Origin: Gigantopelta aegis
Taxonomy: Eukaryota > Mollusca > Gastropoda > Neomphalida > Peltospiridae
NCBI RefSeq assembly: GCF_016097555.1
Contig: NC_054702.1
Coordinates: forward strand, 106,604,226 to 106,668,225
Direction: 5' to 3'
Length of the DNA stretch: 64,000 bases
The notes beneath the pieces are model-generated. The model worked only from the letters and a program-made list of their open reading frames with translations, made no database searches and was not told the origin of the DNA. Shown one piece after another: positions 31,509-62,600 of the stretch. Position 1 is the first letter of the stretch. Each line of letters starts with the position of its first letter. The position numbers and the translations under genes are program-made.

Positions 31509-31976
31509 TATTATTCTTAAATTTGAAATATTGACGAAAAAGTACCCATAACCATAGGTACAATTATTGTATCATTGTATAATATATATTAATTATTATA
31601 TTAATTCAAATGGTTTTATAGTAAACGTAAACACGATAGATTCCATTATGTGAATGTGTCTTCATCCCCTTGATTACATTCATCTGATAATTCAGTCATT
31701 ATGATCCTGTTTCTCAAGGCAAATGATAGTTCTACTATGAGAGTAGTAGACCAACAGATCAATTCTACTGATTGACCAGCACTGCTTCTAACAATACGCA
31801 CTGTTACTGGAGTAAATAGATCACTAATTTCTCGTGTTTAAAAATATGCAAATATTTCAGGTTAAGGGTTGTGTCAAAGCAGTGTATTTGTAAACAAATC
31901 AATATCACTAGTGTGTTTTCCATGCATGCACTATACACATGCTAGTAAAATAATACAAGGTATTACAAAATAAATG
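31509..31976. other. no feature recognised
   Basis: AT-rich unique sequence between two mobile elements. Confidence 0.4.
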
Positions 31977-32888: not shown

Positions 32889-33275
32889 GTTTGTTTTATT
32901 TAACGACGCCGCTAGAGCACATTGATTTTTTATCTTATCATCGGCTATTGGACGTCAAACATATGGTCATTCTGACACTGTTTTTAGAGGAAACCCGCTG
33001 TCGCCACATAGGCTACTCTTTTTACGACAGGCAGCAAGGGATCTTTTATTTGCGCTTCCCACAGGCAGGATAGCACAAACCAAGGCCTTTGTTGAACCAG
33101 TTATGGATCACTGGTCGGTGCAAGTGGTTTACACCTACCCATTGAGCCTTGCGGAGCACTCACTCAGGGTTTGGAGTCGGTATCTCGATTAAAAATCCCA
33201 TGCCTCGACTGGGATCCGAACCCAGTACCTACCAGCCTGTAGACCGATGGCCTGCCACGACGCCACCGAGGCCGG
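32889..33275 (-). repeat. SINE-C, near full length, - orientation
   Basis: On the - strand the head ggcctcggtggcgtcgtggc and gggttcggatcccagtcgag (B box) lead into aaaaatcgagataccgactc, acccattgagcct-type sequence, and then the body shared with SINE-A. A related + copy is at 60140. Confidence 0.9.
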
Positions 33276-34566
<1,291 letters not shown>

Positions 34567-35248: not shown

Positions 35249-35362
35249 ATGTTGAAACTCGTTTCGTTTTTATTTGTAATTGCTTTTGTTTATGCCGACG
35301 AGCAGAAACATTGGGCTCTTATTGTTGCAGGATCTGAGGGATGGGATAACTACAGACACCAG
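35249..35362 (+). CDS. LGMN: legumain exon 1
   Basis: 38 codons: signal peptide then [20 protein letters not shown] + HQ. It carries the Asn and Arg of the active-site region. The ATG (aagATGTTG) is the first that opens the family frame. Donor gtgtgt, phase 0. Confidence 0.95.
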
Positions 35363-38300
35363 GTGTGTATTATAAATAAAGTAGGATCATCTGTGATAAT
35401 CATACTCATGATATTGTCATGATCATGACAAAAAAGAAATGTCAAATGTCTTTCTTTAAATTTAAGCACTTGCGTTTTAAGTTCATTGCAAATGGGACTT
35501 TACCATTAGGTAAATCTACATTTTACACACAACAAATTAAAAAAAATAATAACTTACGTTGTAAAAAAATAATAATCATAACAAAATTAACATGATAACT
35601 GTTAGCCCAGTCACCTCTAGCCCTCCCCTTACTGATATGTAGGTGTAGGCTAGAGGAAACAATGTAATGCTTTGGCAGTCATCCACAACCAAACAGTCAC
35701 AAGCTACTGTGTCTAAAATACAATTTTTCTCCTAAATTTGATGCCACAGAGGTTTAGCTTTACATGTTAACCAGTACATAAGGAAAAAAATGTTTTATTT
35801 AACAATGCACTCAACACATTTGATTTACGGTTATACATCGTTGAATAACCAGTACATACTACATAAAGAAACCCGAAATCAGCATTGCAGTCGATACAAA
35901 GTCTGTGCTGTCTTTAGAAGTCTCGAAAAACTTTAGGAAAATCTAATTGCACATTGCCTTTGATCATTTGGCTACGTGCACAGAATCGTATTCTGTTCGG
36001 AAATTAAAGGGACTGAATTTTAGCTATAGTAAGAGCTCCATCTCTCCCCCCCCCCACCCCACCCCTCTGCCAACAAAATAAACATGTATCCATCCTACTT
36101 TTTTTTTTTTTTTATTATTGTTTCTTAAACATTGGGTATTTCCTATGAGTTAAAAATAAATTACGGTGTATAAAATTAGGCACGCACAATTTTGTCGTTC
36201 GTCTGTAGGTTATGCAAAACCAATATCAACAAATGATGGATCATTCGTGCAAAAGCTGTAATCACTCATCAGAAAATCCAAACAAATGTGTGTGGACTAA
36301 TATCATCAGTGTTTTGAAAAACTGCGGGCAGTGGGAAATCCCTGACCTAGATGTGCTTGATAGTAATGTCTAACCAGCTTTTTCTCCATTGTTCAACATG
36401 TCCAGCTATTTCCTTCACGACCACCGTCTACTTTCGTTATAAAATGTAACCTGCGTTATAGGGCTCGAGTACTAGAAAGTCAAACTCGACCCGGTCCCAA
36501 GTACCCGGCTCTTACATTAGACGATGAGATTAAAGGAATAAAGTACAATAGCATTATGCATCTTAATTCCAACGTTGAACATGCATGCCAAATTTTGCCA
36601 TGGTATTGCATTTAGAAGTGTTGTGATGGACGGCCAGTTTAAAAAGAGAAACTAGCGCATGATCATATAATTATTGTGTAATTTATATCATTGATTATCT
36701 ACTGCTGAAATTATTGTCCTACATTGTCCATTGTATTATAGCTTCTCATTGTATTCCACCTTGTACAGGTACTTGAGTCCTATGAACGCCACTGTTTGAA
36801 GCATCACAGAACCTTTATGAGTAGTTTCTTAGAATATTATATTTTATACTGATACAATTTAATGACACTGATGAAAACAAAATATGTTAAAAAAATTATG
36901 GACGGGTGTCATGAAAATCTCTCACCGCTATTCCAAGCCATTCGGAATAAATCAGCCGATTACGGATTCTCCGCAGACTTTGAGCTTCTTTCGGACTGAA
37001 TCGGGTCTGTTAATTTAGCAAACGTGATGGCATTCTAGCGACTGTAGCCTACCTAGTGTCGGACAAATTACCACTAATATACTGACACACAATGAAAATG
37101 CAAAACAGATATTTTTCTATATTTTGTTGTGATTAATGAAAAATATATTTATTGGACTTAAAATAACAATTTATAAGAGAAAGCCATTGATTGGTACTTT
37201 TGTCTGGATTTTAATCCTGGTTTTGTTCTCGTTACACATACAATAGCAGAAACACACAAAATGGTGTGAAATGCAATGCACGTGAAATGCGAGTATGTGG
37301 ACACATACACGTCACGTAATGGTGTCATATTCCTCGTCACATTAAGAATGCCACGACTCTGAGAAGAACAAAGGGAGCAAGCGTTGGGCATGGTTCAAGG
37401 GGGGACATCTCAAAGCCAAGTTGCTAGGACCTTCAGAGTCCATCCATCAACTATTAGATGACTTGTTGACCGTCATCAACAGATCGGGAGTGTCCATGAT
37501 CGACCTCGACCTGGTCAACCTCCAGTTATGACCCACGCCAAGATCGGCATATTCGACGACGCCACTTCCGTGACCGGTTGAGAACTATGACGATGACAGC
37601 AAGCAACACAATAGGATGTCATGGAAGGTCTATCCATCCGATCACGGTCATCCGTCGACTCAGAACGGCTGGACTCTGATGCAGACGCCCGTACAACGAT
37701 AACATCATGACACAGCGACATCGTACTGCAAGATTACTGTTTGCTCTCCAGAATGGTAACCAGCCTTTTACCGGAGCATTGTTTTCTCAGATGAGTCCCG
37801 TTTCTCTGTCTCCTTTGCCGATGGAAGAGCACGTGTGTACAGAAGACTCCATGAACTGTACGCTGACGGATGTGTGAGGGAACGTGATCGGTTTGGCAGG
37901 GGTTGTCTGATGATATGGGGGGCAATCAACTGTGATTTCAGGAGTGATCTCATCATTGTCCACGATGCCCGTACAGCCCAGCATTATGTTGACATTATTT
38001 TAAGACCAGTTCTCCAGCCACTTTTGCACCGTCACCGAAGACCAGGAGGTCCCCTTCTGTTTCAACAAGACAATGCCCGTCCACATACTGCAAGAATTAC
38101 CCAGGCATTCCTGCAACAAGCTGGTATCACCGTTATGAACTCGCCTGCCGTTTCACCGGATTTGAACCCAATTGAACACATGTGGGATGAGTTAGGACGT
38201 CGTGTACGTCACCGCCAGCTTGCACAGGCATTGCAGGAGGAGTGGAGAAACATTCCTGTGGCTTATTTGAGATGTTTGTGCCAATCCTTTCCCCGTCGTC

Positions 38301-40761
38301 TTCACGCATGCTCACAGGCCAATGGTGGACACACCAGATACTGACCTTGATATGGGTGGGGGTTGAACTTTTCGATTACTGATGATAACTGGCCATGTTT
38401 CCATGTGAATGTATCTCATGAATACCAGTCATTAATGTCATATTACATTATCCATCAATTCATTAATAGTTTGTCGTTATTTGCAATGAAAAGTTGTTAT
38501 TGCGTTTTCATTGTGTGTCAGTATATTAACTTTGTGACAGTCAAAGCATGCCAATACATAGTCTCATCTGGCTCACGCTAAGGTACATGTGCAGCTACTG
38601 TTAGATCGATTTAGTTTAAAACCCATTTTGCCTGTCACAAGAACATGCACCGCGGAATGGGAGATCTTGTGCCACCATCGTTAGAAAATCGTGTTCTCGT
38701 TACTATGGATAGCATTTTACAGAATTTCTAATGTCCAACGAATTCAAAGTGACATTTGTAAAAAAAAATTAAAATTATATAGAGGTTATAAAATGTTTGA
38801 CATATATCATCTACAGATCAATATTATACTTGTTTAAGCCTAAATTAAAATTGGTTAAATATTTAAAAACAAACAAAATACTTCGATGACCCACGAAAAC
38901 TTAGTGTCTGGTAAATGGTCAATTTACTAATGAAGGCCAAAAATCATGAACAAATGTTCAACTTCATCAACGTTTATTAATAACTAATAGATTTTAACAG
39001 GTTAACAACTTGTTGAATGTATATATGTATATGTCTCCTTTAGTAATTAAATAATCAACAATAGCTATATATACTAACACTAAATTATTCCAGGGCTAAA
39101 TAACTAACAATATATTCTACTCAATGTATTTAACAAGTCAGGTGATGACCTTAAAAGACTGAATTCAATCATCTACTAATACTTTAACCAATTAATTACA
39201 AACTCAACAGACCGAGTCTAAAAAAGATACAGGTAATGGATCTTATACTAAAAAATCCTCCCAATGCTTCACTAGAAAAATGCTGTAGTCTACAAACAAT
39301 ATTTCAATTTGTTTATGTCAAATACTAGTGCACTCGCACTTACTTCACTGGTACAAAACAATACAAACAATATCCAATTGTTTGCCTAATCAGTGTACAT
39401 GCAAAGCCTCATTTGTGCACACTCTATTCTTTATACACTTGTAATTGAACTTGTCACATAAATATCCACAATACCCGGGACCTACACTTTTATGTGCTGG
39501 GTATTGCTTACTCTATTCCCTAACTCAATTAATGCATAGTCAAAACCTAATTCTATTTCTTAACAATTTTTGTTTTATGGCCTAAAAATTAGTCTGGTCC
39601 TTATTTATTATACTACAACATATGCTAAATCTTTATTGTCAATTACTACATTAACCCACCTAATGGGACGAAACACTGACAACCCAACTGACTATACTAT
39701 GACGCGATTGACCAGAGTAACAAACATTGGCTGGATTGCTATTTATACCCCCGCCACATTCTACGTTTGGCGTAATTCTGCTATTGCTGGATTTCTAGCC
39801 GCTTGCAGAATTTACGCTGTACAATTCTGCCGATCCCATTAATGGTTGGAACGGCAGAATTATTCTGCCCTTTATTGGATAAATTGCCAATAACGCTAAA
39901 GTTAAATATATTATTTTAGCCAACTATACTTAATTTTACATATTTTATCACTTTTATAAGATATTTCTCGTTCTTTAAAAACACATCAGCTAAAAATAGC
40001 ACTTTACCGTTGCAAGGTGAATGTCGTCTGCAAATCAGCTGTTTATGACAGGAAATATTTCAGAACGAGGCTCTGGCACCATTTTCATATACCATACATG
40101 TTACGAACTACTATTGCTAATCTTCTATCTTATTTCCACTTGGAAACTGACAACATCTGCCATACAGTAATAAATACCTCCATTAATGTTAAACAAATCT
40201 AATGATATGTCATGTGAGTAATTCAACTTGCTATTAAAATAAGTGTAAGGCCAAAAAAAAAGTGTGTTTCCGGTCGACAGACCGTCCCTAGTTTTACCCC
40301 CCTCCCCCGGACCCAATTTTTTTTCTTCTCAAACTGAAAAAAAAAATAAAAAAAGAAGAAGTAAAAATAAAAGAGGACAACATCACCAAACAAGAGTATT
40401 TCCTTCCTTGCACATTGTTTACGTACTATTATACGATACATTTTGCACATGTAATTCCCTTCCGAAAAACATCGAGAAATTATGGAAAAGCTTTTGTAAT
40501 AGAGTTCCTTCCCCTGATTAGCTACCACCGAACAGCTTGGTCGGTCACAGAAGTAACTGAATGTACGAACATAGCCTGGGTACAGGTTATTTCGATTAAA
40601 TATAATCGTATCAATTCAGCTTAATTCTCGTCTTCACTTAAATCAACAGGTCTTATTATTAATGCATCTCAAATGTTTGCATAAAGTATTTAAATTAAGA
40701 ACAACGAAATTAATACAAATGTCCCATTAATTTAAAGAAATACACAAACAGTGCATACCAA

Positions 40762-40838
<77 letters not shown>

Positions 40839-43800
40839 ATTATTATTATTATTATTATTATGATAGTATTCAATTTAAAAAAAAAAAAAAAAAAACCCCT
40901 ACCTACCTACCCTAATTTTTTGGGGGGGATGCAATCGGAAACACCTATTTTTGTGTGTGGCCTAAACAAGAATGTAAACAACCGTTCTTGTTGGATTCTA
41001 TTAAAGGAGCATTATCTTCAAATACGAACGTCAACAATAATGCAGATATTATTTATACAATGCACCACTGGTAATGTTGCACATTACCAAATCCTTACAA
41101 TACTTCATAAAAAGAGGTCCAAAAAGATTTTCATCGGTCGGTCGGGTTACGACAAACAAACCTAATTTATATTTTTGCCTGGTAGTTAGTCTTAGCACAC
41201 AAAAAGTATATTTTCGTATTTATGATAGGAGAAAATCGCTCATCTTAGATTCTCGTTTGAATATCGTTGCCCATTAACCTTTTCATTTGTATCTGAACTA
41301 CTGAAGAAAGTCGTATGTGTAAACAATAAAACCATATGGTTGTCTGAAAAATTCAAATTTTATGCCATGTAAACTCTGGCACTCAAAAATTGCAAATATT
41401 AAAAACAATTGGCAAATTTTATTTTAATTTGGCAAATAAATTTCATGTAATAAATGTCATTTTATTCGAAATTAACTGTGTTTTTGCAATTTTTGAAGTT
41501 TGAAATGATGATTTGGCGACATTTTCTGATCACCCAGAACTAGCCTTGAAACAACATGCATGTTTCTGTTTTAGGCTGATGCCTGTCATGCCTATCAGAT
41601 TATGAAGAAACATGGCATCCCTGATGAAAGAATCATTGTTATGATGTATGATGACATCGCACACAATATTGAGTAAGTAATATGTTTGTACTTCTCATTA
41701 TTCTGCCCACTAAATTCATATAGTTTAATTTTAACATGTCTTAGTGTAACAGGCACTGTTGTGCTCAAAGCTAATGCAGGATGCCACTGAAATTAACATC
41801 ATTGTTACCCAGACAACCGATTGTTTGGTCACACAAATTATATTTGTATTTTGAATAAAGTTTTGATGATCCTGAAGTTTGTAAAGTTCTCTTTATTTAG
41901 AATAGAATGGTTCATTACGTAACCAATTGGCAGTATGTGTGAATTTACAGATGTGTAACCAGCACATGAACTGAATGATGGTTTACATGAAACATTGTGC
42001 CCTAAAGTTGCATAATAGAATAATTTGGGTGTCATCTGCAGTTCCTTCCCTTCTAGTTCTATATTTCTCTTTTTACGTTTATGCTTATCCAAAGGCTGGC
42101 AATAATATATTTGTTTAATACATAAAAAAATGTTTGTGCCAGTTGAAAAGTAACACATTAATATAGGAAAATTAAGTTATTTAGATCAAAGCTCAGCAAC
42201 TGAGAGTAATGTGTCAAAAGAATGTGGAAGTGGCAGTGACTGTCATGCTTCAGTGTGCTTGTGTTGTTCTCTTCTGTGTAGATTGCAATAGATGCCATCT
42301 TCTAATTAGTATGCATAGCTGTGCATTTTCTAGCTATTTTAAGGGCAGTAAAACACTGTGCTTAAGATTGTTAAGTCTAGCTCAGGTCTACCTTGTGAAG
42401 TCACAGAACAATTGGCAACTGACTGTTTTGGATCAGGCTGTGTCCCAGGCACGACCATGTGGCACAGTTCAAATTGATGATTTCTCTTTTTACATTCACG
42501 ACTGAGTGCATTTATGATGGTGTTCTGACGATTGACTAATCATCACGAGAGTTCAGTTGATCTTAGGTGGCAGGATCAGGATGGTAGATACAGTTGACAT
42601 AAATCTAGTTATAGTGTCATTCCAACATCCCAAAGTACCAAAGTTGATATTTGTTTTTTGTATTTATAACCAGTCGGTATACAGTATAATTTAATTTATT
42701 AAGTTTTAATCTAGTACATTGGTGGCTTAATTGTTAATATAAACTAAGCATTCCTCATTGTTCCCATTAGATAGCTCAAGTGCTTATGTTTTATTAAGAA
42801 AGCTATTAACGCCCCCCTCAATATCCTTTCTGTGGATCTAATACTACAAAAACATATAATCTGAAACCTTTACATGAACAGCAGTTGTAACCCAAAAGGT
42901 AATTAATTTCAGTTTAATAATGCCCCAACATTGAACAAAGTCCATGGTATGTATTGTCCTTTCTGTAGGAAAGTGCATATAACAAATACTTTGCTGCTAA
43001 TGGAAAAAATATAACATGTTTAATCTAAAGACTATGTTTCACAATTACCAAACATTTGACATTAAATAGCTGATGATTTAAAATGAATTAATATGCTCTA
43101 GTGGTGGCATTGTTAAACAAAACAAGCTTTAATATTTGCTATTGTAAAATATGCTAACCTTGGTTAGGGTCACAAGTTTAAAAGTAAAACTAAAAATATT
43201 GCTTGAATTCTCATGTTATGCCATATTTCTTACACACCCATTGGTGAGAACATCATACGTTATTTTTGGTTACACATTGTTGTTAACACATGTATGTGTG
43301 TTAATAATTTCAAGACATATGACTGGCTGCTCCTAGGTCACCAATGCCATACTGCCAATGAAAACCTCCACGATGGAAATTGGTTAGACTGTGATACACA
43401 TGTATATAGTTAACCTAACATTCATGTGTCTGTGATGCATAAGTCAGCTACAAGTGCAACATCTGTCAATAACTTTTAGTAAAAAAAGATGTTAAAATTG
43501 ACTTTAAACCTGTTTTTTGGGGGATATGTAAGAAATAGAATAATACATTCGTGTCTGTTAGATACCATTTATCTCACAACTCGTTTAAAAAGGTATACAA
43601 CTTGCTTTCGCTCGTTAGATACATTTTAAAACAACTCGTGAGATAAATGGTATCTAACAGCCACTCATGTATTATTCTTTATATATATCTACTATAACAA
43701 TATATATGTCAGGAACACAATTGCCTACATTTCAAACATTTCTGTTCTAACTTTGTTTGAAAGGGAGTGGATAAAAAGGTTATTGGTGTTAAAAGGAGCT

Positions 43801-44666: not shown

Positions 44667-47600
44667 TCTCTTTAAAACTGGGATGGGACGTAGCCCAGTG
44701 GTAAAGCGTTTTCTTGATATGCGGTCGGTCTAGGATCGATCCCTGTTGGTGGGCCTATTGGGCTATTTCTAGTTCCAGCCAGTGCTCCACAACTGGTGTA
44801 ACAAATGCCGTGGTGTGTACTATCCTGTCTGTGGGATGGTGCATATAAAAGATATCTTGTTGCTAATTGAAACGAGTAGCCCATGAAGTGGCAACAACAG
44901 GTTTCCTCTCTCAATATCTGTATGGTCCTTAACCATATGTCCGATGCCATATAACTGTAAATAAAATATGTTGAGTGCGTTGTTAAATAAAACATTTCCT
45001 TCCTTCCTTTAAAATTTACCTGCGATTTTTTAATAAATTTAGCAGGTGAATATTTATTGTAATAATGGGACTGCTATTTGCTTTTTGCAGGCTACTATAA
45101 TGAGACCTGAAATTATTTATAGTTTCTGTTTTTCCTTCTCACCCCCACCTCACCTCCAAATGCCTTGTAAATGATCCCTTGTGAAATATCACTTGTACCA
45201 TGGGTCCATTTCTTAATCTCTGGTCACATGATACATTGTAAGTGTAAAGCTGTATCCTATTTCAGTGTTTAATCGGTAGATCATAGGGTCAGGGCATGGC
45301 ACACTACGTCTAGAACAATTGTTACAAACATGTATTTACAGGTTAATTACCAAGATGTGCTTATCAGCCTATATTTGGGAAATATGATACCAGTACTTAG
45401 TTGAAGCACATACGCAGGTACATACATACACACATACATACATACATACATACATACATACATACATACATACATACTTACATGTATTAATTGTTGAAAG
45501 TATTTGTATCACATGAGATGTTAATTTTAGGTAGGTAGGTAGCTAGTTTTATGTGCTCATATACCACTAGGGTTTCGAACACTAATTTTAGAATGTGTTT
45601 TTTAGTGGGTGTGAAACTGCTTAAAATATTATCTAGCACTTCACTTTCATTTCATAATCATATGCCATAACTTTCATGAATTATATAAAGTTACAAGTTC
45701 ACCGTACCATATATCATTTACTGATGCAAAATACAAACACAACTACAGTTGTAATAAACTTGTGTGTTATTGCTGTCAGTATTTATACAGCACACAAAAC
45801 AGTAAAATAGCCTGTTTCTAGGTGTTAAAATTGAGAATAAAACATTTCCCATGAGATAGAGAATTCCCATGGCCAATACTTTTCAATTATAGACAAGAAA
45901 AATGGCATTCAAAGCTAAAGTAAGGAAATTAATATGAATGATCTGTTCTGAATTATTAAATATACCAAAGAAATATTTACTGTTTTAATAACGTGCCCAC
46001 ATCATGTCTTAAATTCAATCTCATGTCAATCTTGAAAAAACTAAAAAAAATTCTGTTAAAGGAGAGGACAATTAAGGCATTTGGCCTGGTATGCATATTT
46101 AACGATATATAATGCACATTATTGCTTAATATCAACACGTATAATCGTATAGTTAATTAATAAAACAGTTAAATGTGACGACTATTATATATAACGGGCG
46201 CAGCCATTTTGTACCATCTCAGTGAGTACGCCCTCTGTCGAGCTGGTGGTTACGTAATACTTAACGCGTCACGTCAGGAATGAGCCTTAGAACTAGAAAA
46301 ACACAATCTACCTGGTTTTTGCGGGATAATAAATAGTCATACATTGCAATGTTCTGTAATAATACACATCCCAGTAAGCCAACGGTAAGTATATCCAGCA
46401 CTATATATATTATTTTTCAATACAAAATAAAATACCATTGTCAAAGTGGCTACACAACAAGTCGAAACAATTAACAATGTTTTTCCCATGCATTAACCTA
46501 CGTACTGAAATGATACACGGAGTGTTTTCTTAGTTAATTGGTCTATGCTGTTAGTTGCTTCTACCTGTGATTTCTGATTGGCAGGTGTGTATTTGATTGG
46601 TAACCAGACGAGCCAATTAATTGACGCTGTCTAGACACAAAATACATACCGGTATTGTGGAATATTACCTGTCGCCCCTAAAATCGTAATGGACATGGTT
46701 TATTACTGTAAATAGTTCTGTAAAACTATTGATTAAGTAGACTTTTCCATCTACAACCACAGAACTGACCAATTACATAGTCCCAAAGAAAAGAAAATTA
46801 TCACTTGCCGACTTGTGTATTGTGGGTTGTCGTTTTTGCTTCAACGTAGCATATCAATAGGCGTAATAGTGTACATTTTTCCTTTGGATTATTAAACAGA
46901 GAAAAATACTATAACCCCATTTTGTTCCGTTAATGCAACTTGAAATATATTTAGTTAAATAGTTTATTATATTATTACGTCATTTATGCTGTTTTACAAG
47001 TCAGGTTGATCAAAGAGAAGCGCCTTGTCAAAAATTACTGCTTTTGTTTACACTGTACATACAGTAGATGGTCAGGAGCTGACGTCACTTCGCCCCAAGC
47101 TATCCCACCGGACGTCACAAAAACGAAACAAAATGGCTGCCCCCAGTTAGCAGGAATAATCATGGTTTTTTATTAACTCTAGCAAATGAAAAACGCGTAA
47201 TTTTAAAGTGTCAGTATGTGTTGGTGGTCCGGGTATGCATCTTTCCAACACATAAGGCTCTTGTTGGAGTTGACCCTACCTTTAAGCCTTTTTTTTATAT
47301 ATACAGACTGGTACAAATGTGAAGTATTTGTGAATGTGTAATTATTGCTGTTATAATTAGGAACATCTGGATCACATTTGTTTGTGTCGACATGATTACA
47401 ATTTTATCGCTGTAGAAACCCAACTCCAGGGATTGTGATTAACCGACCCAATGGTCCTGATGTGTACCATGGAGTCCCAAAAGACTACACTCACTCTGTA
47501 AGTAGTATTCCGGTTCACTTAATTATCTTCTTGTTTGGAATAGAATTCATTATTATATACATAGCTACAAAATATATACTACTCGAAAGAATTTAAGGGT

Positions 47601-50600
47601 CAAAAATTTATAACCAAATAAGTTTCAGAGTGTATTAGATTGATGATGTAAACTACACCAAATTTTTTATTTATTGTTCCATATTTACAAAAAACCACAA
47701 ATAAACGTCACTGTATACAAGAAAGTCACATGACATGCTGTCAAAGTTGAAGGTTGTCAAACATGGATTTTACACATTAGAACATTTGTTTAATAGCGTG
47801 TGAATCCACCCCTGGCGCGAATACACTCGTCACATCGTTGCCTCATGCTGTTGATCAGATGTCTGAAGAACTCTTGGGGAATGGCCTGCCACTCTGCCAT
47901 AAGAAGTTGACCCAGATCATGAAGGTTGGCCGGAGGGGCATGGTTATCCCGAACTCTCCTGCCTAATTCGTCCCAGGCGTGCTCTATTGGGGCCAAGTCA
48001 GGCGAATATGCTGGCCAATCCATCCTGGCGATACCTTGTTGTCTGAGAAAGTCCGTTACCACCCTGGCGCGGTGGGGTCTGGCATTGTCATCCTGCAGAA
48101 CTGCCCCGCCGCCAATCTGCCGAAGGCCTGGGAGAACCAACGGCCGGATAATCTCATTCAGATAGCGGATTCCATTCAGATTGCCATCCACCACATAGAG
48201 GGGGGTCCTGTGGTGGATAGAGATGCCGCCCCACACCATGACGCTGCCACCACCGAACCGGTGACGTTGTCTAACGTTAACGTCAGCGAAGCGCTCACCA
48301 GGACGTCTGTAGACACGAACCCGACCGTCGTTGAACTGGAGACTAAACCTGGACTCATCAGTGAACATACTCGACCCCACTGAACACGTTGCCACCGCAG
48401 ATGAAGCGTGCACCAGTGATGTCTGGCCGTTCTGTGACGTGGTAGGAGTGGTGGTCGAACAGCCTGGTGACGGCAGCGTAGATTATTGGCTCTCAGACGA
48501 TTGCGTATGGTTTGATCAGACACTCGAGTTCCAGTCGCAGTCCGCAGATTGTCACGTAATCGGCGTGCAGTGGTTCTGCGTTGACGTAGAGCCATATTGG
48601 TGATGTAGCGGTCCTCTCTATTTGTAGTGCTTCGGGGTCTTCCCGAACGTGCACGATTTCGAACAGAATTCGTTGCTTGGTACCGTTGCCACAGACGGCC
48701 AACGACACTGACTGACACCAAGTCTCAGAGCAACATTTCTTTGCGTATTGCCATTCTGAAGCCAAGCAATAGCCCTTCCTCGATCTTCGATAGTCAGTTG
48801 AAGTCGTACCATTGTCGAATTTGGAGTGTGCACCGTACACGAACGCAAGCTCCAATTATACGGAAATTCAGCATTGGGAACATGGAATACACGTGCAAAG
48901 CGTGCAAATGAAGCGCTTTGTGAAAAAGCAAGTTATGGGCACTTAGCAGACCTTTCACTTTCGCCCTAATTTACGTGCAAATGTAAGCATGTTTTCGCCA
49001 TTAGAACTAGTCGACAGTGTCAATGACAGTGGATTTTAATTCATTTATGGGTTGCTTAGACCCACTTTCGTCAAAATGGAACAATACCATGCGTGACATT
49101 ATGGTCTAGCTAATATAATTGACATTCAGAAAATAATGTCAAAAATATCGTCTGACCCTTAAATTCTTTTGAGTAGTATATATAGATTTACAGAATCCAT
49201 CAAAGTGATATTCAGTGAAAAGTCATATTTTCATTGTATCTTTGTTACAGTAAACCATATTTATATTTTGTGAACAAATTCATGATTCAATTATCTCCCT
49301 TGTAAATAATGGCATTTTAATTATTGAGGTCAGTGTCATTTTATAATTTTTAAGTTTGATAATTATTAATGCATCTGATTATATTTGAAAAATAAAAACA
49401 TGTAATTTAAACAATTGTACCTATAAAAACTTGATATGAGGTGCAATTATGATAAAATATCTAAAACTGACTGCGTACGAAGATTTAAAAAAAATAAAAA
49501 AAATATGACAATCCTGTTGTTGAGTGTAAGTTAAAATTTTTAACTGGTTAATTCATGTTTTATTTTTGTGGGTTAGGTAAGGTAGTTTTAATCATATCTC
49601 TATTTCTGCTAAATTAATTAATGCTAGTCCTTGAGTGTTGTGTGCAGCTGTGTCAGGTATAGGATGCCTGTACTTAATTCATCTTAAAGCAAATAGTGTT
49701 TTCTGTCCATAAAGGAATGCTTGTGCAAGGCTTTTGGACTGGTATGCAAATTCAACTGTATATAATGCGCATTATTGCTTAATATCAACAAGTATATTAT
49801 TATATTTAATTAATAAAACAGTTAAATATGATGGCTATTATATATAAAGGGTGCACCCATTTTGTTCCATGATAATAAATATCTCTGGCGAGCCGTTGGT
49901 TACATAATACTTCATTTCAGGAATTAGTCTTAAAACCTGAAGAAACAAACATACCAATGTTCTGTAATAGTATCCATCCCAGTAAGCCGGCAATAAGTAT
50001 ATATTATTTTCAATGCAAAATAAACCACCTTGTCAAAGTGGTCGAAATAACTATCATGTTTTGTACTTACATGTACCTACATACTAAAATGATAATTGGA
50101 GTGTTTTCTTAGTTAATTGGTCTATCATGTAGTTGCTTCCACCTGTGATTCCTGATTGGCAGACCTGTGTATATTAGGCAGGTTACACCTTGTTGTAAAT
50201 TACTGCCTTTTGTTTACACTGTGCATACAGGAGTTGGTAGGAGCTGATGTCACTTCCTCCCAAACTAGATTACCTGATGCGACTAAAACGAAACAAAATA
50301 GCTGCCCCCAGTTAGCAGGAATAATCATGTTTTTTATAGACTATAAAATTACGTGTTTTTCATGTCTTAAAGTGTTGGTATGTTTTGGTGGCCTGGGTAT
50401 GCATCTTTGCAACACACAAGGCTTGTATTTGACTTGTTCTCCCCTTTAAGTACTGAACAAAATGTTCATGAATCACTGCCAAAATGTGTGGTTATAGTCT
50501 GTAGAGGTGAGGCATACAGCCTTTCTGGTTGTCACTATTAGCATTGTTAAATTACAGATTCTGACATAACAATGTTTAGAATCCTTAACATTTGGTATTT

Positions 50601-53600
50601 TTGCAGGAGGTAACGCCTAAGAACTTTTTGGCTGCGTTGACTGGTGATGAGGAAGGTTTGGCCAGTCGAGGACTGTTCGGAAAGAAAGTCATCAAGAGGT
50701 ATAGTTAATTAATTTTTTACTGTTTTTCTTGACATAGAACCACTAATAGGTGTTGGAAGATAAGGGCAACTGACCGGCCAGCTAATGAACTACATAATTT
50801 GATTTTTAATGGGGGAGGGAGAGTGCAGTGCATTATCTTCAGAATTGGGTAGGGGAGGCAGTCTTTTCTCTCCTGCTTCCGATGCATGTGCCACTATAAA
50901 AAATTTTTTTTATGTGTGTGGTTATACTCCTGTTTAGAAACAGATATATAGGGTAACCCTATTGTATTTTCACATTTACTGATGGATATTGGTGGTTTTA
51001 ATGTCACAAATGTGGTTCTGTTGATGAAACTAAAGATGTGCTATTTGGAACATCTGCTACTCACTGATGTGTGTCATACTCATAGGTAATCATACTAATG
51101 TTATGCCATTTTCTGGCAATCATGTAATTGTCATTTCTTATTTTTGTGTACAAGCATCTGCAACATAGAAGGATATGGTCAGGACTAATGTTAAGATTTT
51201 CAGAGTAAAAGACCTTCAGAGTAATATATCTTTGGAATTTAGACATACCACCAAACTGAAGTACCTTGAGACCCAAAACACTCTGGGTATGGGTCTGGTG
51301 ACTATGGTACCAGTCGAAAATTAAATGCATTGACATGTGACAAAACATACCATGTCTGTGTTAACTAATGCTCTGGCAACAGACGCCATAGAACATGCGC
51401 TATATTTTCACACTACCAGACTGGCAGCTGCACAATGTGCAAGTCTTGTTTTTTGATTTTTCTTATAAACAACACGAAAGATATATATTAAGCAATGTGG
51501 AATTATCGTAAATATTGTTGATGTTTATAGAAGACAATATATCCAAAGATATGAATGTAATCAATTACATTGATATACTAATAACATGCAACAGATACAG
51601 ACGCAGACATCAAAATTCACCAGAATGAGCATGTTTGCCACACTCGCTAGATCCAGACCCAGACCCAGATTTGGTGTAGTTTGGGCAAACTTTTAAAATT
51701 GTAGTTGCCAAACACTTGAATAAAATTATCCATGTTTGTGTACACCTATCCCAGTCCTATAATGGTTTTTCCTGTGTTTTTCTTCACTTTTTTTTTTTTT
51801 TTTTTTTTTTTTTTTGTATTTTTGTTCCATTAGTTTAGTACTTTAAATTTCTATCTACTTTTGAACAGTGCAGTGACTTTGTGATAGAATACTTCTTTTA
51901 TAACTTGTATTTAAAATATTTTGCTTTCAGTGGTCCAAATGATAATGTTTTTGTGAACTTTGTTGACCATGGTGCACCAGGAATTCTAGCTTTTCCTGAA
52001 CAATTTGTAAGTTTGCATGTCAAGAATAGGCATGTGGTCACAGCATGTACACAATGCATGTATAGTGTAGTGGACGTTACTGCATGACAGGTGTGCTGTA
52101 GTTTGGCAAAGTGTACACATGAAAATAAGTTGTAGTGATGAGTTTTCACTTTTGTACAAGTTATTATTTTTCAAACATTTACAGTGTTTGAAATATGCAA
52201 AATTTTAAATTAGTACAGAATCAGTGAAGACATTACACATTCTTGGTACCTAATATAAGTAAATAATATTGAATGTCAACACTAGTAAAAAAAAAAAAAA
52301 TTCACAATTTTCAGTGTTAAAAATCTTGAGATAAGCAAATTGTATACTTTTTACTACAGTACTCCAACTGTTTTCATGTGTACATTAACAACATTTTACT
52401 AACAGTTTTACAGCATTAATAGCCATTATGTTTGGACAGAGGTAAATAATCCATTGTCTTGCATCTGATATAGATCCACAGCCATAATTAACAGTATGAC
52501 AAAATACAAAAAGGTGGCATTTTTGTCGAGCTATAACACCAAAATGGGTTTCAAACTTTATATGTCCCAATTCTTTTGTCAGTGCCCCTTCAGTAAACAT
52601 ATTAGCTAACTGACTATTTAGTTTTTCTCTCTTTTCACTTTTATAACGCTGCATGTAACTTTAGCGATATAACAGGGATCAGTTTTGTTTTGAGGAACCC
52701 ATGCTTTCTTTTGATTTTTGTTCATTTTTCTCTTTAGGTCTTACACAGTATACTAGGATTTGCTGTTTGTGGCTTGAACATATTTTCATGTAGTCTTAAG
52801 GGTTAAAACAATTTTAAAAAATCCATCTTGTTTTTTTTCAAATACTAGTTTGGTCTTTATCAAAGAAAAACAATATTACAGTTACACACCACCATTACTT
52901 ACTCAATGCAATGCAGGACAAATTTTATCACAATGTATCAGCTCTGTATAAACACAAAGTTTAGCCAAATTATTTATTAAACTTCAAAAATGACAGAAAA
53001 CCAGTTATTTTATAATAAAATATAGTAAAATTATTTCGCCAACTCAAAATAAAATTCGGCAGTTGTTTTCAAAATTTGCATTTGGTGAATCTGGCGACTG
53101 CCAGAGCTAGCCCTGTGTATTGAAAGTGCCATGTGACTGATAGTTTTTGGGAGTACTTTCCCATGACAACAACCTGGCCAAAAAATTCAGTTAGTCACCT
53201 TTACGCAGAGCACTGCCTCATTTTTGTGTTATACATGTGTCGGTATACCACTAGCATAATTGTTGTCAGTTGGTATTAAAAATGACAAGTGACTTGAAAC
53301 CAATGGGTTATTTAAATACCACAGAGGTTAACCTACGTGTAATCATCAAAGAAAGATTTTAAAAGGCATTTTAGAATTTTGTTTGATTTTTTTTAATGAA
53401 GAACTATTTTTTAAATTTAACTGTTTTAATGGTGGTGTGATTCTTAAAAGCTTTATTTTAAATAACCTTAAAAATTAATTGCTACAAATCGACAAACTCC
53501 ATAGTATTAACAAATTTTATGCACTAATATTCCTGTTTTGCTTGATATTTTGCTTTTTTATTAACATCTGTGCATGTCTGTATACTGTTCCAGAGTTAGT

Positions 53601-56600
53601 GATTGTGATATTCAATAATTTCAGTGGTCCAAATGACCATATTTTTGTCAACTTTGCGGACCATGGCGCCCCTGGAATTTTGGCTTTTTACAATAAATTT
53701 GTAAGTACTTAACAATATATGACTTAGGTCCATTTTGTGTAATCTAATATATACAAAATCAAAATTGTATTAGGTAACCTTCATAAAAAAAATACATTTT
53801 ATTCTTTTGATTAATTTAGTATACTGTCATTTGATTACTGCTTCACAATTGGTGAAACAAAGTTTGTTTTGTTTAACAACACCACTAGAGTACATTGATT
53901 TATTTTAATAATCTTCAGCTATTGGATGTCAAACATTTGGTAATTTTGATATAGTTTTAGAGAGAAAACCATGCAACATATTTTTCCATTAGTAGCAAGG
54001 AATCTTTTATTTGCACCATCCCATAAACAGGACAGTTCATACAACAGCCTTTGATATACAAATCATGGTGAAGTGGCTGGAATGAGAAATAGCCCAATAG
54101 GTCCACCAACAGGGATCAATCCTAGACTGACAACTCTAGGCGAGAGCTTTTAGTGAGGGCTGTGTCCTGTCCCAGTTGGTGTAACAAAGGCCATGGTATG
54201 TACTATCCTGTCTGTGGGATGGTGCATGTAAAAGATTCCTTGCTACCAGTAAAAAAAGTGGTGGCAGTAGGTTTCCTCTCTACTTATCTGTGTGGTCTTT
54301 AACCATATGTCCGATGCCATATAATTGTAATTACCAGGTGAAATGTGTTGAGTACGTCATTAAATAAAGACTTTCTTTCTGTCTTTTTTTAATGGGCTTT
54401 TTCAAAGTTTCTTAGATGGCTATCTGACACAGATTTGACTGTATTCTTAGCTTTCAATTATTCACACACACACACACACACACACATACACACAAATGCA
54501 ATTTGCACTGATTAGATTCCTTTAAATATTAACTGCATATTTTATTTAGTATGTGTTTTTCATATTTTACACTAACATATTTTGAAGCATTTAGGATTAA
54601 CAATTCAGTTTACTTTTTTTTTTCTATAAGGAGCCATTCTTCCAGTTTCATTAGCTACTATTTTGAAAAGCTAGTTATGTGAAAATGCAGGATTCATCAT
54701 ATCACCAATTGTTTAGCGGTACAGTGAAGTAGTCTAAAAATCATTACAGGGTTTGAACTTAAGAATTTGTTACCCATGAAAATTTGAAATGTTTTTGCCA
54801 CAGGCTAAATGCTCACCTATGGCATTTTTTAGCCTTTTACAGCACTTTTTGAACCACTAACATTTGCAGATTTTTGTAACTTTTATATTATAATGTATGC
54901 AGAAAAGAAATATAGACTTCAGAGTTTATCGAATATACATAATGCATGTGCAGGTGAAATAAATTGACAGAAATACACATGTAGGCGAGTCAGGGCTCAT
55001 ACTTGAACAAATATTCGTTTAGCCAATTTTCAGAAATTAGAGTATTTCGTTAAATTTATTAAAATGTTGTTAATTTAAGCAAAATTTTATTAGCCAAATA
55101 CTAAATTTTGTAGCTATATTGTATAAAATTGTTTGAGTCTGTTGGCTATTAATGTAAAGATTGAGCCCTGTGAGTGTGTCCTAAAGTTATTTTCAGAATG
55201 GTGGAATGAGGTAATGTTACAATTCATGATGATGATGTATTACTTATATTGCACATTACGAATGGTCTCATAAAATAGTTTTGATTCCTTTACAGCTTCA
55301 TGCTCGAGATCTAATGTCAGCCATTAACAAGATGCACAGTGAGCAGAAATACGCAAAGGTAAGAAATATTGACTAAACGATTACCTGTTTATTTAGCATT
55401 ACCTGTATTTGCTAGATTTCACCAGGTGAACTGGGAAAAAAGAATAATATAGGGATGGAAAAGAATATCTGTTTTAATGACATCTAGATTGTTTTATTGA
55501 TTAAATTCATAGAAAGTTATGTAGATTGCTGCGGAATAAAATTAGGGAAGACAGAACATGATGATAAAAATAAGACATTATGCGATGTAAATAGATTGTG
55601 TAGTTTTTCAAATTTAGTGGATGATTAAAGAAATATAGTTTATGTTTCAGAAAGTGGAGAGAATAGAGTAAGATTATTTCTCATTCAGTTTCAGTTTATT
55701 TAAAAAATGGAAATGTTTGGTGGATTGTAAAAGTACAAGTTTTTAACCTATACAAATTATGTAAATATGAGCAAGAATGTTGTAACATAATGTTTTGGCA
55801 TTGTTTTAAGTTGGCTAAACCCATTTGATTTTGAGAATATGTAATAAATATATGGTGGGTTTTTTCTGTAGATGGTGTTTTATATTGAAGCCTGTGAATC
55901 TGGATCAATGTTTCAAGACCTTCTGCCTAAGGACATAAATGGTGAGGACATTATATAGTTTAATGTCATCCAACTAATAGTGGGGAAGATATAAACATAT
56001 GTAACAGAAAACTACCAAGACATTCACATCTGGCAGGAAGTGTGAAATGTTCACATCTGGGCAGAAAGTGTAAAATTTGGTATATAGGGGTATTTTGGTC
56101 TACTGATTAAACAAATTGTTGGATGCAAGAAGTGACAGGCTGGTTATCTGCCATCTTGAATTTAAAGATAGCTCCCATTACAAAATATAAATTGCTCATA
56201 TTTCGGTTTCTGAACCACATAGGAGATCGGAATTTGGTATATGGAGGTATTTTTGTTTTGCTAATTTAAAAAATTGATTGATTACAATAAGTCTGACAGG
56301 CTGGATAGCCACTGTAGATAATGTCTGTGCCATGTTTTGATTTAACGTTGTGAATGGTGTTTATTTTCCAGTGTTTGCCACAACGGCAGCCAATGCCCAC
56401 GAGTCATCGTACGCCTGCTACTTTGACAAGAAGAGGAGGACCTACCTCGGTGACGTCTACAGTGTCATGTGGATGGAGGACTCTGACAAGGTGGGTTAAC
56501 TGGTACATCATATGCCATGATATGTGCTGTTCTGTCTGTGGGAAACTTCACTTAAAATATCTCTTGCTACTTTTTGAAAGGAGTGATGTGTGTGGCTGCT

Positions 56601-59600
56601 TTTATTTCGATGAAGTATCATAATAACTATGTTAAATGCCAAATAGCCATAATTTAACGTGCTGAGGTGTTATTAAACACATATTCATTTCATTTCCAAT
56701 AATGTCGTTAGATTCGTGGGTTTGGGCAATATGTTATTGCTGGTGCTAAAGGTGGTGTTTGGTTCTGTTGTCTTACAAACTAATTTTAGACATTCATCAT
56801 AACCTATCACATGACAATATCAAACGTATATTGGAGATTGATTTAGTGACATGTTATTGGCTTCACCATTTTGATAATCAACTTGTCAAATCCGAACCGT
56901 TCACTAAAATCAACATTAATGATGCTCAAGTTAACTGTTAGTATGCAGGCACTCTGATAACTGTAAATAACTGAAAAATACATTTTAATTTTTATATCTG
57001 GTTTTGAGCTTTTTGTGCTATTTATTTATTCAAAACCATAGTCTTTTAGTGTACAATTCCTTTGGATGACACAGCATTTTTCTGTTTCTGTATTAAATAA
57101 CTAAAATATACTCTTCAAAAAAAGAAACGCAAAAGGGTACAAATGGGTTATAACTCCGATTTTATGTTTCCTACCGATTCATGCTTTGTGAATATAAGGT
57201 CATTGCATGTCCCAAACACATTCCCACGGTTACATTCGATAAAACGCAGCTACTGTACAATAAAGTTCCAAAATGTGAATATTCGCAAAAACGCAGCCAC
57301 GTGCAAACCATGTCACCACTGCACGTGCGTTGTCTGCACGTGCAACATGAACACCGACAGTATAAAAGTGCAGGGTGTTCGCTTGCCTGGCCTCTGTATC
57401 TGGCCGACAGTTGACAATCCAGGACATGCCACGTCTCAGTGAACCGCAGAGAAACAATGCCATCGGCCGACTAGACGCAGGCGAATCCAGAACGGCCGTT
57501 GCCAGGGCATTCCATGTGTCCCCAAGCACCATCTCCAGACTGTGGGACCGTTACCAGCAACATGGATCAACACGTGACCTCCCTAGATCCGGTCGACCAC
57601 GGGTCACTACCCCCGGGCAGGACCGCTACATCCGGGTACGCCACCTTCGGGAACGATTGACTACTGCCACCTCCACAGCCGCAGCAATACCAGGTTTGCG
57701 CAGGATATCCGACCAGACCGTACGGAACCGCCTACGTGAGGTAGGAATTCGTGCCAGACGTCCAGTTCGAGGTGTCATCTTAACACCACAACACCGTCGA
57801 CTCCGACTGCAGTGGTGCCAGATTCATCGACAATGGCCTCAACTGCGATGGAGACAGGTGTGGTTCAGTGACGAGTCCCGATTTCTGCTCCGACGTCATG
57901 ATGGAAGATGTCGCGTGTATAGGCGTCGTGGTGAACGTTATGCGGCAAACTGCGTGCAGGAAGTGGACAGATTCGGTGGGGGTAGTGTCATGGTGTGGGC
58001 AGCCATCTCACACACTGGCAGAACTGACCTGGTCCACGTGCAGGGCAACCTGAATGCACAGGGCTACATTGACCAGATCCTCCGGCCACACATCGTTCCA
58101 GTTATGGCCAACGCCAACGCAGTGTTCCAACATGACAACGCCAGGCCTCACACAGCACGTCTCACAACGGCTTTCCTACAGAACAACAACATTAATGTCC
58201 TTCCTTGGCCATCGATATCACCGGATTTGAACCCAATTGAGCATCTATGGGACGAGTTGGACCGACGCCTCCGACAGCGACAACCACAGCCCCAGACCCT
58301 GCCCGAACTGGCAGCAGCCTTGCAGGCCGAGTGGGCCACCATCACCCGGGACGTCATCCGTACTCTGGTTGCTTCAATGGGCAGGCGGTGCCAGGCAGTT
58401 GTCAACACACGCGGAGGCCACACCCGGTATTAACTCCAGATGACCTTGACCTTGGTGGTGTGTCCTATCACTTACTCACAATGGACTAGAGTGAAATGTG
58501 AACAATCCTGCAACATTTGGTAATTATCGGACTCACCATTCAATAATTAAATCAATTCTCCAAATGTTACGACAATGTGATTTTGCGTTTCTTCTTTTGA
58601 AGAGTATATAAAGCACTTCGTTAAACACACTGTACAGATGAACTCCGTAACTGCACATTATAAAATATTTCTGTTGACTATTTTAGGAAGATCTGCAGAC
58701 AGAAACTCTTCAGAAACAGTTTTTGATTGTGAAAGAGGAAACCAACACCAGTCACTGCCAGGAGTATGGAGACATGGTACGCGTCTCACACAGCCTCTAC
58801 AGTTGATAAACAAGTGACATAGGAGCCTCATTTACTGTTTTAAAACATGGTGCTCTTTTATAACCAGTATTAGTTTCAAAATGGCTCTTGGACTTTATAA
58901 TAGTGACTTCCTGTCAAAATTATGGGGTTTTTTGTTTTTTTTTAATGTCAAAATTATGTCTTGTATAATTTTATCTTTAAAAAAGCCAAATAATTTTAGC
59001 ATACAAGAAGTTCAATTGTAAAATCGGTTGAGAAGATTACCAAAACATCACAGTTTTATTCTTGATATCAGTTTACACATAATTCTTTCTGGTAACTGAA
59101 AAAGAAAAGAAATTTGGCCGAAGTACTCTAGAAAGGGAAGTTGAAAATACTATAGATTTACCAGAAATATAGCAATTATGATTTCTCAGAAATGAAAATA
59201 TCAGCCACAAAATAACAGGAACTTGTACTTAAAAATAAAACTGTAAACTGGTTTTCAATTGCAAACTGATTTATTTTCATGTTGCATGTCTTGCATATTT
59301 TATGGTGTTTTACATATATGTTTCAGAGTATAAGCAATCTGGATGTTGCAGAATTCCAGGGCAAGATGAAATCCAGGACTACATCAAAATACGATCGCAT
59401 TCGCATTCCCAATCCAAATGTAAGCTTGCTAAAACCTATTGCCGTAACTATTTTTTTTTAATTTAGCTCAAACATGTTTCAGTTATTGTTTGATAAAATG
59501 GTGTAGTATGCACAGAGTTGCATGTAAAATTGTTTTCTGATGCATATATATTGAAATAACTTACAACAAAATGATCAAGTCATTCATGCAGATTCAGGTA

Positions 59601-62600
59601 AACAGCTACGTGTTTTTACAGGGTGTGATATTTGAGAAGTTGTATTCCATGAAAATATAAAACATTATTTAAAAAGCCTAGAATTAAACTTGTTTTTAAT
59701 AAATTGTCACTAGATTCTTAAGTTTTTTCTAAGTTTTAAAAAAACCCATTGGGGGGAGGGTGTTTATGGGAGGGGAGGTTCTGGTATGTAAGAACTGCAG
59801 AACATTGTGTTAAATTTATACTGAAGATATTTTCTGATGCATCCTGCTTTAAATGTTAATGTGTTGTGATTGAATTTCTTTAGTAACTACAATTTCCTTT
59901 ATTACATTTTTTTATCCAGTTTGGTGCTGTCAAGTCTGAAGATGTTCCTCTAGCTATTCAGTATCAGTCTGTTAAGGTTGCTGAAACGGAAGAAGAAAAA
60001 GACAAATATCTCACGAAGATTGCTGCCCTCGAGCAAGTAAGTGGGGCTCGTGAGAAAATAGACTTAACATGATTTGGCCATGCTACAATCCATAGCAGTT
60101 TGCATAGATGGACTGTAAGATTTAGGACTTTAAGACATGTACCGGCCTCGGTAGCATCGTGGTTAGGCCATCGGTCTACAGGCTGGTAGGTTCTGGGTTT
60201 AGATCCCAGTCGAGGCATGGGATTTTTAATCCAGATACTGACTCCAAACCCTGAGTGTGCTCTGCAAGGCTCAATGGGTAGGTGTAAACCACTTGCACCG
60301 ACAAATGATCCATAACTGGTTCAACAAAGGCCATGGTTTGTGCTATCCTGCCTGTGGGAAGCGCAAATAAAAGATCCCTTGCTGCTAATCGGGAAAAAGG
60401 AACCCATGTAGTGGCGACAGCGGGTTTCCCCTCAAAATCTGTGTAGTCCTTTACCATATGTCTGATGCCATATAACCATAAATAAAATGTGTTGAGTGCG
60501 TCGTTAAATAAAACATTTCTTTCTTTAAGACATGAATTTTAAACAGCGAAGTACTTTCCACAAGAAAAGAATTTCAGAATAGACAGGCTAGCCTTTTAAA
60601 GACCTTTCAAGAAGATTTAGCTTAAGAATTTTATTATTATATACTAATATTTTTTGTTTAAGATGAAGAGCATCATTCGCAATGATTTTTATAGGAAATT
60701 AGACAATTTGACTTTTTTCTTTGTATTTTTTTTTTTTTTTTTTTTATTTTTTTTTTTTTTGTACTGTACATTCTCCGACATTGGTAAATATTTAAGAAAA
60801 TGTATCAAAGAATGCATTTTTCTTTTTCAGAAACGAACCCAGACAATTGAAACGTTTAGGCGCATCATAAGTGTGTCACTAAACCACGATTCTTGGAAGG
60901 TTTCCGAGGTGATGTCTAGCCGGATGACGCTCAGGAACTTTGATTGTTATGAGCCAATTGTAGAGGCTCTTCGCCAGGAGTGTCCTGGTCTCAACATTCC
61001 ACAGGTCAGAACATTTCTTCTTAACTTGATTTTTGATTATCCAGTTGAAATTCAAGCATGTTGTCACACACCTCAGCTATGTGAGCGGTCTGTTCTGGTT
61101 AGTTGTGAGTAGCTGTCAGATAGACATTGAGCTGGTAAAACTCTCTCTGGATGCAAACCAGTACCAGGATCTAGATCCAATATCTATCGCCCATAAGTCA
61201 AATAACATAAACGCTACACTACCACAACCAGTAAATCTGCACGGTTTTATGATGTGCTTATTAATATTATTCAATGTAATGGAACATCAGTTGGTGATCT
61301 TATTTAGAATCCTGTTCGGAGTTATTTCCCTTTATTGTTCTTGTTACATTCATAATTAAGTAATTTCACAGTATAAGAATCTTAAACAACATATATATAA
61401 AACAGTGCTATGCTACTTGTAATAACAAATTCCACTTGTTGGTACACACGTATGTTTTTTTTTTCCTCTGAATTTAATTTCCAAGTTTAAATGGATCTAT
61501 GGCTACCTCTATTAAAGGGACACACCCTAGTTGTTAACCATTACGCCGTTGTTTTTCGCTATTAAACCCATTTCCTCACAAATAAAATTGCACTTTACTT
61601 ACTTTTTATTATTTAGAATATACATTAAAATTCACCTGAAGTGTTTTTTTGGTAATCCTGGTGTTTGTAATACCACAAAATGCATTTTTTTGTATTTCTT
61701 AAAAACCCAGGTGCATCTAAGAAAAAAACGTTGAGCAGACATGGTCTAATCTATTTTTAGAGGAGATCTTCCTGTTTCAACGTCGCAGACATTGGTATAC
61801 CATGTGACCGTTATCACTTTGGTTTGGTTTGTTTTCTCGTGCACAATTCGCGCAGTCAACATCCGATTTGTTGTCGTTTGCTTGTCGTTCATTTGTGAGG
61901 TTTTTCTTCACAGTTAGTGAACATTTTCATTAACAATAAAGTTCAGACAAGTAAGTATCTCAATACAAAACGTTACAAACCCTTAAAACCAATAATTTTG
62001 CTAAGTCTTACGATATCTGGAGAGGGGATACAACCTTGGGGGGTGGGGTGGAGGGCACAAGCTATATTGTTACCTTTATTTACATTACATTTTCGTCCTG
62101 GGGAGGGGAAGTGCCTCCCCACCTCTGGTTTCTACAGACTGTACTACTACTACCACTACCACCACTACCACTACCACTACAACCAATAATAAACGGTGCA
62201 TCTAATTGCTAATAACAATAGGTTAGCTACTAGTACCTGGTGCCGAATAGCAAATGTAGGCTAATTGCAGTTTATATATAAAATGTATTATTTCAAACAC
62301 TAGTATAGTCAAAATGGTCAGTGACGGACTATCATTGTCGTCTTATTCTGATTCAAGTATCATGATTGCTGCAGCAGCCACTTCCTCAACAGAAGCACCC
62401 ATGTTGGTAAAGTAACTTCCTATTCCAAACTCATTCCTTTCGCTGTCCAGGACAGAACAGTTGGAACATGCCCAGGAGAGGTGAAAGGAACGCACCCTAA
62501 GTCTGTATGCACTCTGGGAAATTTGTCGTGAAATAGGCATTTCTGTGCTTTGAGAGACATTACCGGTGACATCAGAATACTAACTTTAAAAATTATTTCA

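Follow-up and report, generated by a model that had tools for sequence, protein, structure and literature searches.

Two tandem copies of the catalytic-histidine exon, probably mutually exclusive, in the legumain gene of the vent snail Gigantopelta aegis

Legumain cleaves peptides after asparagine and can also ligate them there, and what sets its pH stability, prime-side preference and binding of inhibitors is under active study in the human and plant enzymes. The legumain gene of the hydrothermal-vent snail Gigantopelta aegis (Gastropoda, Peltospiridae) raises the question of whether one gene can yield two such proteases. In this gene exon 5, which encodes the catalytic histidine, is present in two tandem copies, 5A and 5B. 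The gene lies in a stretch of 64,000 nucleotides, here called the window (C4:106604226-106668225), on contig C4 (120,622,278 bases) of the 1.149-Gb genome. We conclude that 5A and 5B are probably two functional, mutually exclusive exons. Exon 5 would have undergone an ancient tandem duplication, with its two copies retained as alternatives and each transcript taking either A or B; the gene probably makes two enzymes with differently charged substrate-binding rims.

The gene is complete and lies on the plus strand, with 13 exon positions between the ATG at 35249 and the stop codon ending at 63477 and a product of 437 amino acids. The product contains a C13 domain and a prodomain; a signal peptide was assigned by eye. 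PF01650 scored 378.7 bits with isoform A and 374.5 bits with isoform B (curated cut-off 22.8), and PF20985, the legumain prodomain, scored 28.1 bits with both (curated cut-off 25.2). The catalytic triad, H142, C183 and N34, was without variation in an alignment of 36 sequences whose first row was isoform B. It matches human His148, Cys189 and Asn42 (PMC9604545) in an alignment made with isoform A. By domain match and active-site residues, the product is a legumain (peptidase family C13), for which asparagine-specific cleavage is predicted. The gene appears to be single-copy. Searches by tblastn and exon-by-exon blastn found no second legumain gene in the window, and a genome-wide family search gave three matches, namely exons 2 and 8 of this gene and one further locus. 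The latter was rejected as a second legumain, its only PDB relatives being glycosylphosphatidylinositol (GPI)-anchor transamidases. As only two of this gene's own exons were recovered, a divergent second legumain could escape that search.

The two copies of exon 5 are 76 nucleotides long, follow an AG acceptor and share their edges (cag/TGGTCC at the acceptor, TTT/gtaagt at the donor) as well as their entry and exit phase. They differ at 17 of 76 bases (77.6% identity), and blastn within the window matches them with an E value of 4.5e-14. The encoded peptides differ at six of 25 residues (134, 135, 140, 151, 152 and 153), and D141-H142-G143-A144-P145-G146 (DHGAPG) is unchanged. With A or B alone there is a single open frame of 437 amino acids. 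Only one of the 13 exon positions is doubled: in the window searches each of the other 12 exons matched only itself, and exon 5 only its two copies. When the 1.15-Gb genome was queried with exon A DNA, exon A alone was returned; exon B was missed, so this search is blind to copies that have diverged as far as B.

Candidates for mutually exclusive splicing may be recognized as neighbouring, internal, similar exons of equal length and frame, with GT-AG splice sites and without an in-frame stop (after PMC5740500), and 5A and 5B have all of these properties. That paper also requires splice-junction reads for each exon, of which B is the one in NCBI isoform X1, and no reads that join the two, unless the join shifts the frame to a premature stop. 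By frame analysis alone, joining A to B gives a stop after 157 amino acids, and skipping both gives one after 134. Since 76 is not a multiple of three, inclusion of both exons or of neither shifts the frame and leads to an early stop, and therefore only messages with a single copy would give the enzyme. Decay of messages with early stops is established for animals in general, and the double-inclusion and double-skip messages of this gene would be expected to share that fate. A preliminary description of this DNA had proposed two 76-bp exons with AG and gtaagt signals, common phase and DHGAPG retained, and these agree to the base with what is found here. Its estimates of about 78% identity, about 17 differences and six changed residues are those now measured. 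The junctions it gave, 50698-51931 and 52006-55296 for A and 50698-53625 and 53700-55296 for B, are those of the gene model. Its central proposal, a tandem mutually exclusive layout, is partly supported: the copies are intact, constrained and matched in frame, double inclusion or skipping breaks the frame, and NCBI names an isoform X1, which carries exon B.

The age of the pair can be judged from its flanks and its substitutions. Similarity between A and B ends about six bases beyond either exon edge (an 88-bp match), which rules out a recent duplication, and the flanking introns cannot be aligned. An assembly or haplotype duplicate is ruled out by the 78% exon identity together with these unalignable introns. 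Site counting between A and B gave nine synonymous differences in 16.2 sites and eight nonsynonymous differences in 58.8. The corresponding synonymous and nonsynonymous divergences are dS 1.02 and dN 0.15, with dN/dS 0.15 (rough 95% range 0.04-0.45; Fisher P 0.001). Neutral drift of both copies would leave at most eight nonsynonymous differences with probability 0.0005, and drift of one copy alone with probability 0.02. When decay of the pair was simulated, only 0.2% of trials with 17 random differences stayed free of stops and had six amino acid changes or fewer. A single copy kept an open frame, DHGAPG and at most six changes in about 20%, 5% and 0.5% of trials with 8, 12 and 17 neutral substitutions, respectively. 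On these figures there is a good case that both copies are coding and a moderate one for either copy singly, and the pair appears to be an old tandem duplication under coding constraint.

It could be that only one copy, most likely the annotated B, is used, and that its partner, a duplicate in decay or seldom spliced in, yields noise when included. Several observations weigh on that side and against two functional exons. The only protein sequence seen, P0001 (NCBI 'legumain-like isoform X1 [Gigantopelta aegis]'), is isoform B at 437 of 437 residues. Its sequence bears out the exon edges other than those of A, which come from the alignment with exon B, and the use of exon A is inferred. The test of constraint on one copy is weak at 76 nucleotides, a single neutral branch being rejected at P 0.02 only and eight neutral substitutions leaving a passable exon about 20% of the time. 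From the name 'isoform X1' one expects one or more additional predicted isoforms, but the name is silent on how these differ. The protein database was clustered at 90%, which hides isoforms; the cluster of P0001 has two member sequences, and the second presumably carries exon A but could be otherwise. Against disuse of one copy, exon A retains its splice signals, open frame and DHGAPG after a dS of about 1, an enhancer-like GCATG cluster sits beside it, and the NCBI name points to more than one isoform. The variant residues of A are all found in other legumains, whereas Tyr151 of B is found in no other of 123 legumains, so that A does not look like a decaying copy. Reliance on one copy is thus thought improbable, and two functional exons are preferred.

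Protein searches gave 13 proteins by scoring over the exon region and 47 fragments with a 100-amino acid query. Among the 170 proteins retrieved from the 90%-clustered database, an FPEQ or FYxK rim was seen in P0001 alone. Fragments P0168-P0170 resemble single-exon readings of exon 5 and run into V-S or V-G at the position of the donor, a read-through that suggests the same exon edges elsewhere.

If two exons are used, how might the choice between them be made? GCATG is the Rbfox site, and in the usual map sites downstream of an exon enhance it and sites upstream repress it. Five GCATG lie 8-75 nucleotides past the donor of exon 5A, and a TGCATG lies 48 nucleotides before the end of the exon 5B acceptor; (U)GCAUG thus stands downstream of A and upstream of B, as Rbfox control would have it. 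In the 100 nucleotides after exon A, five GCATG compare with 0.08 expected (Poisson P 2e-8). The word had been spotted by eye before testing, and hence all five-letter words were checked in 26 exon flanks. When 1024 words and 26 flanks are allowed for, P is about 5e-4, and the cluster is the strongest word apart from a poly-T run before exon 12, with the next-best flank at P 2e-4. None of 20,000 dinucleotide-preserving shuffles of the exon A flank reached five GCATG, and no cluster of at least four within 100 nucleotides was present in 20 other 10-kb stretches of C4 (200 kb, both strands). Elsewhere in the window, a simple repeat of TGCATGCA at 29617-29686 has four GCATG on the plus and five on the minus strand, and 31921-31942 has three on the minus strand. 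TRF reported no tandem repeat as a source of the cluster beside exon A; the spacings of 15, 13, 13 and 26 hint at a decayed 13-nucleotide repeat.

An Rbfox-type protein would probably enhance exon A through the five downstream sites and repress exon B through the upstream TGCATG, and the prediction is that Rbfox favours A. Rbfox acts through UGCAUG on mutually exclusive exons of unc-32, egl-15 and FGFR2 (PMC3585155, PMC2880598). In the passages cited, it represses one exon of the pair from the upstream intron in Caenorhabditis elegans egl-15 (5A/5B) and mammalian FGFR2 (exons 8/9), and for exons 7a/7b of C. elegans unc-32 the model has it activating the chosen exon. In those three genes the role of the motif is experimental, whereas in legumain it is predicted from sequence, with a denser cluster. 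Two findings tell against this switch. Four other exon flanks of 150 nucleotides also carry one GCATG, so that the TGCATG before exon B is weak evidence alone. The acceptor of exon B has 12 pyrimidines in 20 positions (others 12-16), with no sign that regulation is needed. We put the chance that an Rbfox switch governs the choice at about even.

Exclusivity could instead come from competing RNA structures of the docking and selector kind, or from frame-dependent decay alone. The 76-nucleotide length by itself removes the wrong products, and pairing between introns is a known mechanism (PMC6071210, in the part cited). Distant pairing may also play a part: the best duplex between introns 4 and 5b is -70.3, with -60.7 for the better of two random versions, and that between 5a and 5b is -72.7, a value without random comparison. 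On the other side, the duplex between introns 4 and 5a is within the random range. Near the exons nothing outstanding was seen; with 10 random versions per pair, only two of 15 intron-end pairs exceeded all of them, by less than 2 kcal/mol, and docking and selector structures there were rejected. The GCATG cluster, as noted, is the strongest enrichment of any word but one poly-T run. Control without Rbfox is considered somewhat unlikely, and Rbfox remains the preferred regulator.

What would the swap change in the enzyme? No gap interrupts the alignment with human legumain between the catalytic histidine and a point past Asp160, so that residue n of the snail enzyme is human n + 6 in this stretch and 151-153 are human 157-159. 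The loop between the floor (Ala149) and the wall (Phe154) of the S2' pocket reads PEQ in A and YNK in B, and the charge of the rim goes from -1 to +1. The change of PEQ to YNK near the active site had been correctly seen in the preliminary description, and its place is now refined to human 157-159, between Val155 and Asp160. The isoforms would thus share the catalytic histidine and its neighbours and differ in the S2' rim, isoform A having the common proline-containing acidic type and isoform B a basic type without proline.

The surroundings of this loop are known to matter. The floor of the S2' pocket is a glycine in plant legumains, and human legumain has Val155 there, which gives a flat prime side; the eastern wall of the plant pocket corresponds to human Asp160 (PMC8491156). 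The contact between P2' and Asp160 is described as a main factor in both specificity and transpeptidase activity (PMC13052201), and a fungal inhibitor without its Asp160-binding arginine loses inhibition about 100-fold (PMC9579014). Negative charge around the active site, the 'electrostatic stability switch', makes legumain unstable above pH 6 (PMC8491156). Residues 157-159 themselves are not named in the passages cited on the S2' site of the human and plant enzymes. The expected effect of the swap is a changed prime-side preference for substrates or inhibitors, and perhaps a changed stability to pH; isoform B might hold up better near neutral pH and select different prime-side residues.

Rims were compared in 123 retrieved legumains of at least 300 residues, P0001 included, which were picked by similarity and are not evenly sampled. 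Summed over the four rim residues, 94 of these proteins are acidic, 15 are basic and 14 have no net charge, and position 151 is Pro in 104, Gly in 16 and Tyr in P0001 alone. The rim of exon A is of the common acidic type and that of exon B is nearest to the basic GxKF type of Haliotis. Basic rims occur in sequences of Haliotis, Mya and Mactra, which suggests that rim charge varies as a trait in molluscs.

In the mussel Potamilus streckersoni two legumains, P0005 and P0013, apparently on one contig, differ at this rim, with GDKY and GDDM respectively, as if gene duplication there had done what exon duplication does here.

The isoforms might nonetheless be biochemically equivalent, the pair persisting through drift or for reasons of splicing. 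At positions 134, 135, 140 and 152, four of the six that differ, both variants are common in other legumains, and these differences may be neutral. The floor Ala149 and the wall Phe154 are identical in both isoforms, and human legumain itself is described with a flat prime side (PMC8491156). These points count against a difference in activity. Equivalence fits poorly with three adjacent changes of the six falling in the short loop between floor and wall and reversing its charge, and we consider it doubtful. We put the chance of a real biochemical difference between A and B at about one in two.

Comparable arrangements are known. The coq-2 exons 6a/6e of nematodes, annelids and molluscs are a same-length, 134-nucleotide exclusive pair that alters an enzyme core near substrate sites, as here, and similar pairs are reported in molluscs (PMC7434440). 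The enzyme is different, and exon removal was tested in worms, whereas the legumain pair is known from the genome. In the oyster, CvAOXA and CvAOXB arise from a tandem duplicated exon in a mollusc enzyme, again with one copy conserved and the other changed around key functional sites (PMC5589949). There the exon is exon 10, splicing is 3' alternative and stress-dependent expression was shown; in legumain the exon is internal and its length forces exclusivity. The plant legumains AtLEG-beta and AtLEG-gamma come from separate genes and differ throughout, unlike the snail isoforms, which differ by one exon of one gene. They too are isoforms within a single organism, with dissimilar S2' walls and dissimilar behaviour towards inhibitors or substrates (PMC9579014, PMC8491156, PMC13052201).

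Tandem mutually exclusive exons that tune an enzyme are therefore already known, molluscs included, and legumain would be a further instance. No description of legumain with mutually exclusive, duplicated or tandem exons, or of its alternative splicing in molluscs, was found among the open-access papers listed, in line with the earlier statement that none was known; the name 'isoform X1' suggests, however, that an alternative form is already present in the automatic annotation. The pair is real and old, and probably functional. It would add a protease to the enzymes tuned in this way, and two forms that are alike except for six residues, half of which lie in the S2' rim, would offer a clean experiment of nature on the role of that rim.

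The oesophageal gland of Gigantopelta aegis is home to two bacterial endosymbionts and shows high expression of 26 genes of the lysosome pathway; RNA-seq of foot, mantle, ctenidium and oesophageal gland has also been reported (PMC7895826). No paper on legumain together with Gigantopelta was found in the open-access literature. A speculative extension, which we rate as a long shot, is that an Rbfox-switched pair with acidic and basic rims covers by exon choice rim types otherwise split between genes or species. Having less negative charge on its prime side, the basic form would withstand a higher pH and favour different prime-side residues. Its ratio to the acidic form would vary with the organ, to suit lysosomal breakdown of symbionts in the oesophageal gland as opposed to normal turnover elsewhere.

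Table 1. Exons of the legumain gene and putative regulatory sites, in window coordinates.
Feature	Position	Strand	Basis
Exon 1, with ATG, signal peptide and first part of C13 domain	35249..35362	+	gene model; isoform B = P0001
Exon 2	41575..41672	+	gene model
Exon 3	47416..47497	+	gene model
Exon 4, constitutive, upstream of pair	50607..50698	+	gene model
Exon 5A, catalytic histidine, rim PEQF (acidic type)	51931..52006	+	copy alignment and gene model
Five GCATG (52015, 52030, 52043, 52056, 52082; three TGCATG), putative Rbfox enhancer cluster	52015..52086	+	word counts
TGCATG, putative Rbfox repressor site	53571..53576	+	motif scan
Exon 5B, catalytic histidine, rim YNKF (basic type), used in NCBI isoform X1	53625..53700	+	copy alignment and gene model
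Exon 6, constitutive, downstream of pair	55296..55358	+	gene model
Exon 7 (catalytic Cys, EACESGS)	55872..55941	+	gene model
Exon 8	56372..56490	+	gene model
Exon 9	58687..58776	+	gene model
Exon 10	59327..59419	+	gene model
Exon 11	59920..60036	+	gene model
Exon 12 (prodomain)	60831..61004	+	gene model and domain match
Exon 13, including stop codon	63352..63477	+	gene model

The introns of the gene also hold mobile elements. In intron 8 an open reading frame of 355 amino acids (57366-58433, plus strand) with DDE_3 and a Tc3-type helix-turn-helix encodes an apparently uninterrupted Tc1/mariner-like transposase. Intron 3 has a DDE_3 transposase fragment of another Tc1/mariner-like element (47790-48482, minus strand), and a region of intron 1 (37380-38340, plus strand) looks by eye like a third transposase gene of Tc1/mariner type. 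Dispersed repeats at 60140-60540, 44690-45000 and 33000-33280, in both orientations, appear by eye to be related and derived from tRNA, as in short interspersed elements. Farther from the gene, an open reading frame at 20698-21306 on the minus strand matches Abhydrolase_11 (79 bits) and is probably an exon of a second, minus-strand gene. A zf-RVT (reverse-transcriptase zinc-binding) match at 12960-13448, also on the minus strand, is probably a remnant of a long interspersed element. At 283-753 on the plus strand there is a weak match to adenovirus IVa2 packaging protein (19.3 bits, below the curated cut-off of 21), perhaps what is left of a large DNA transposon or of some virus-like element.

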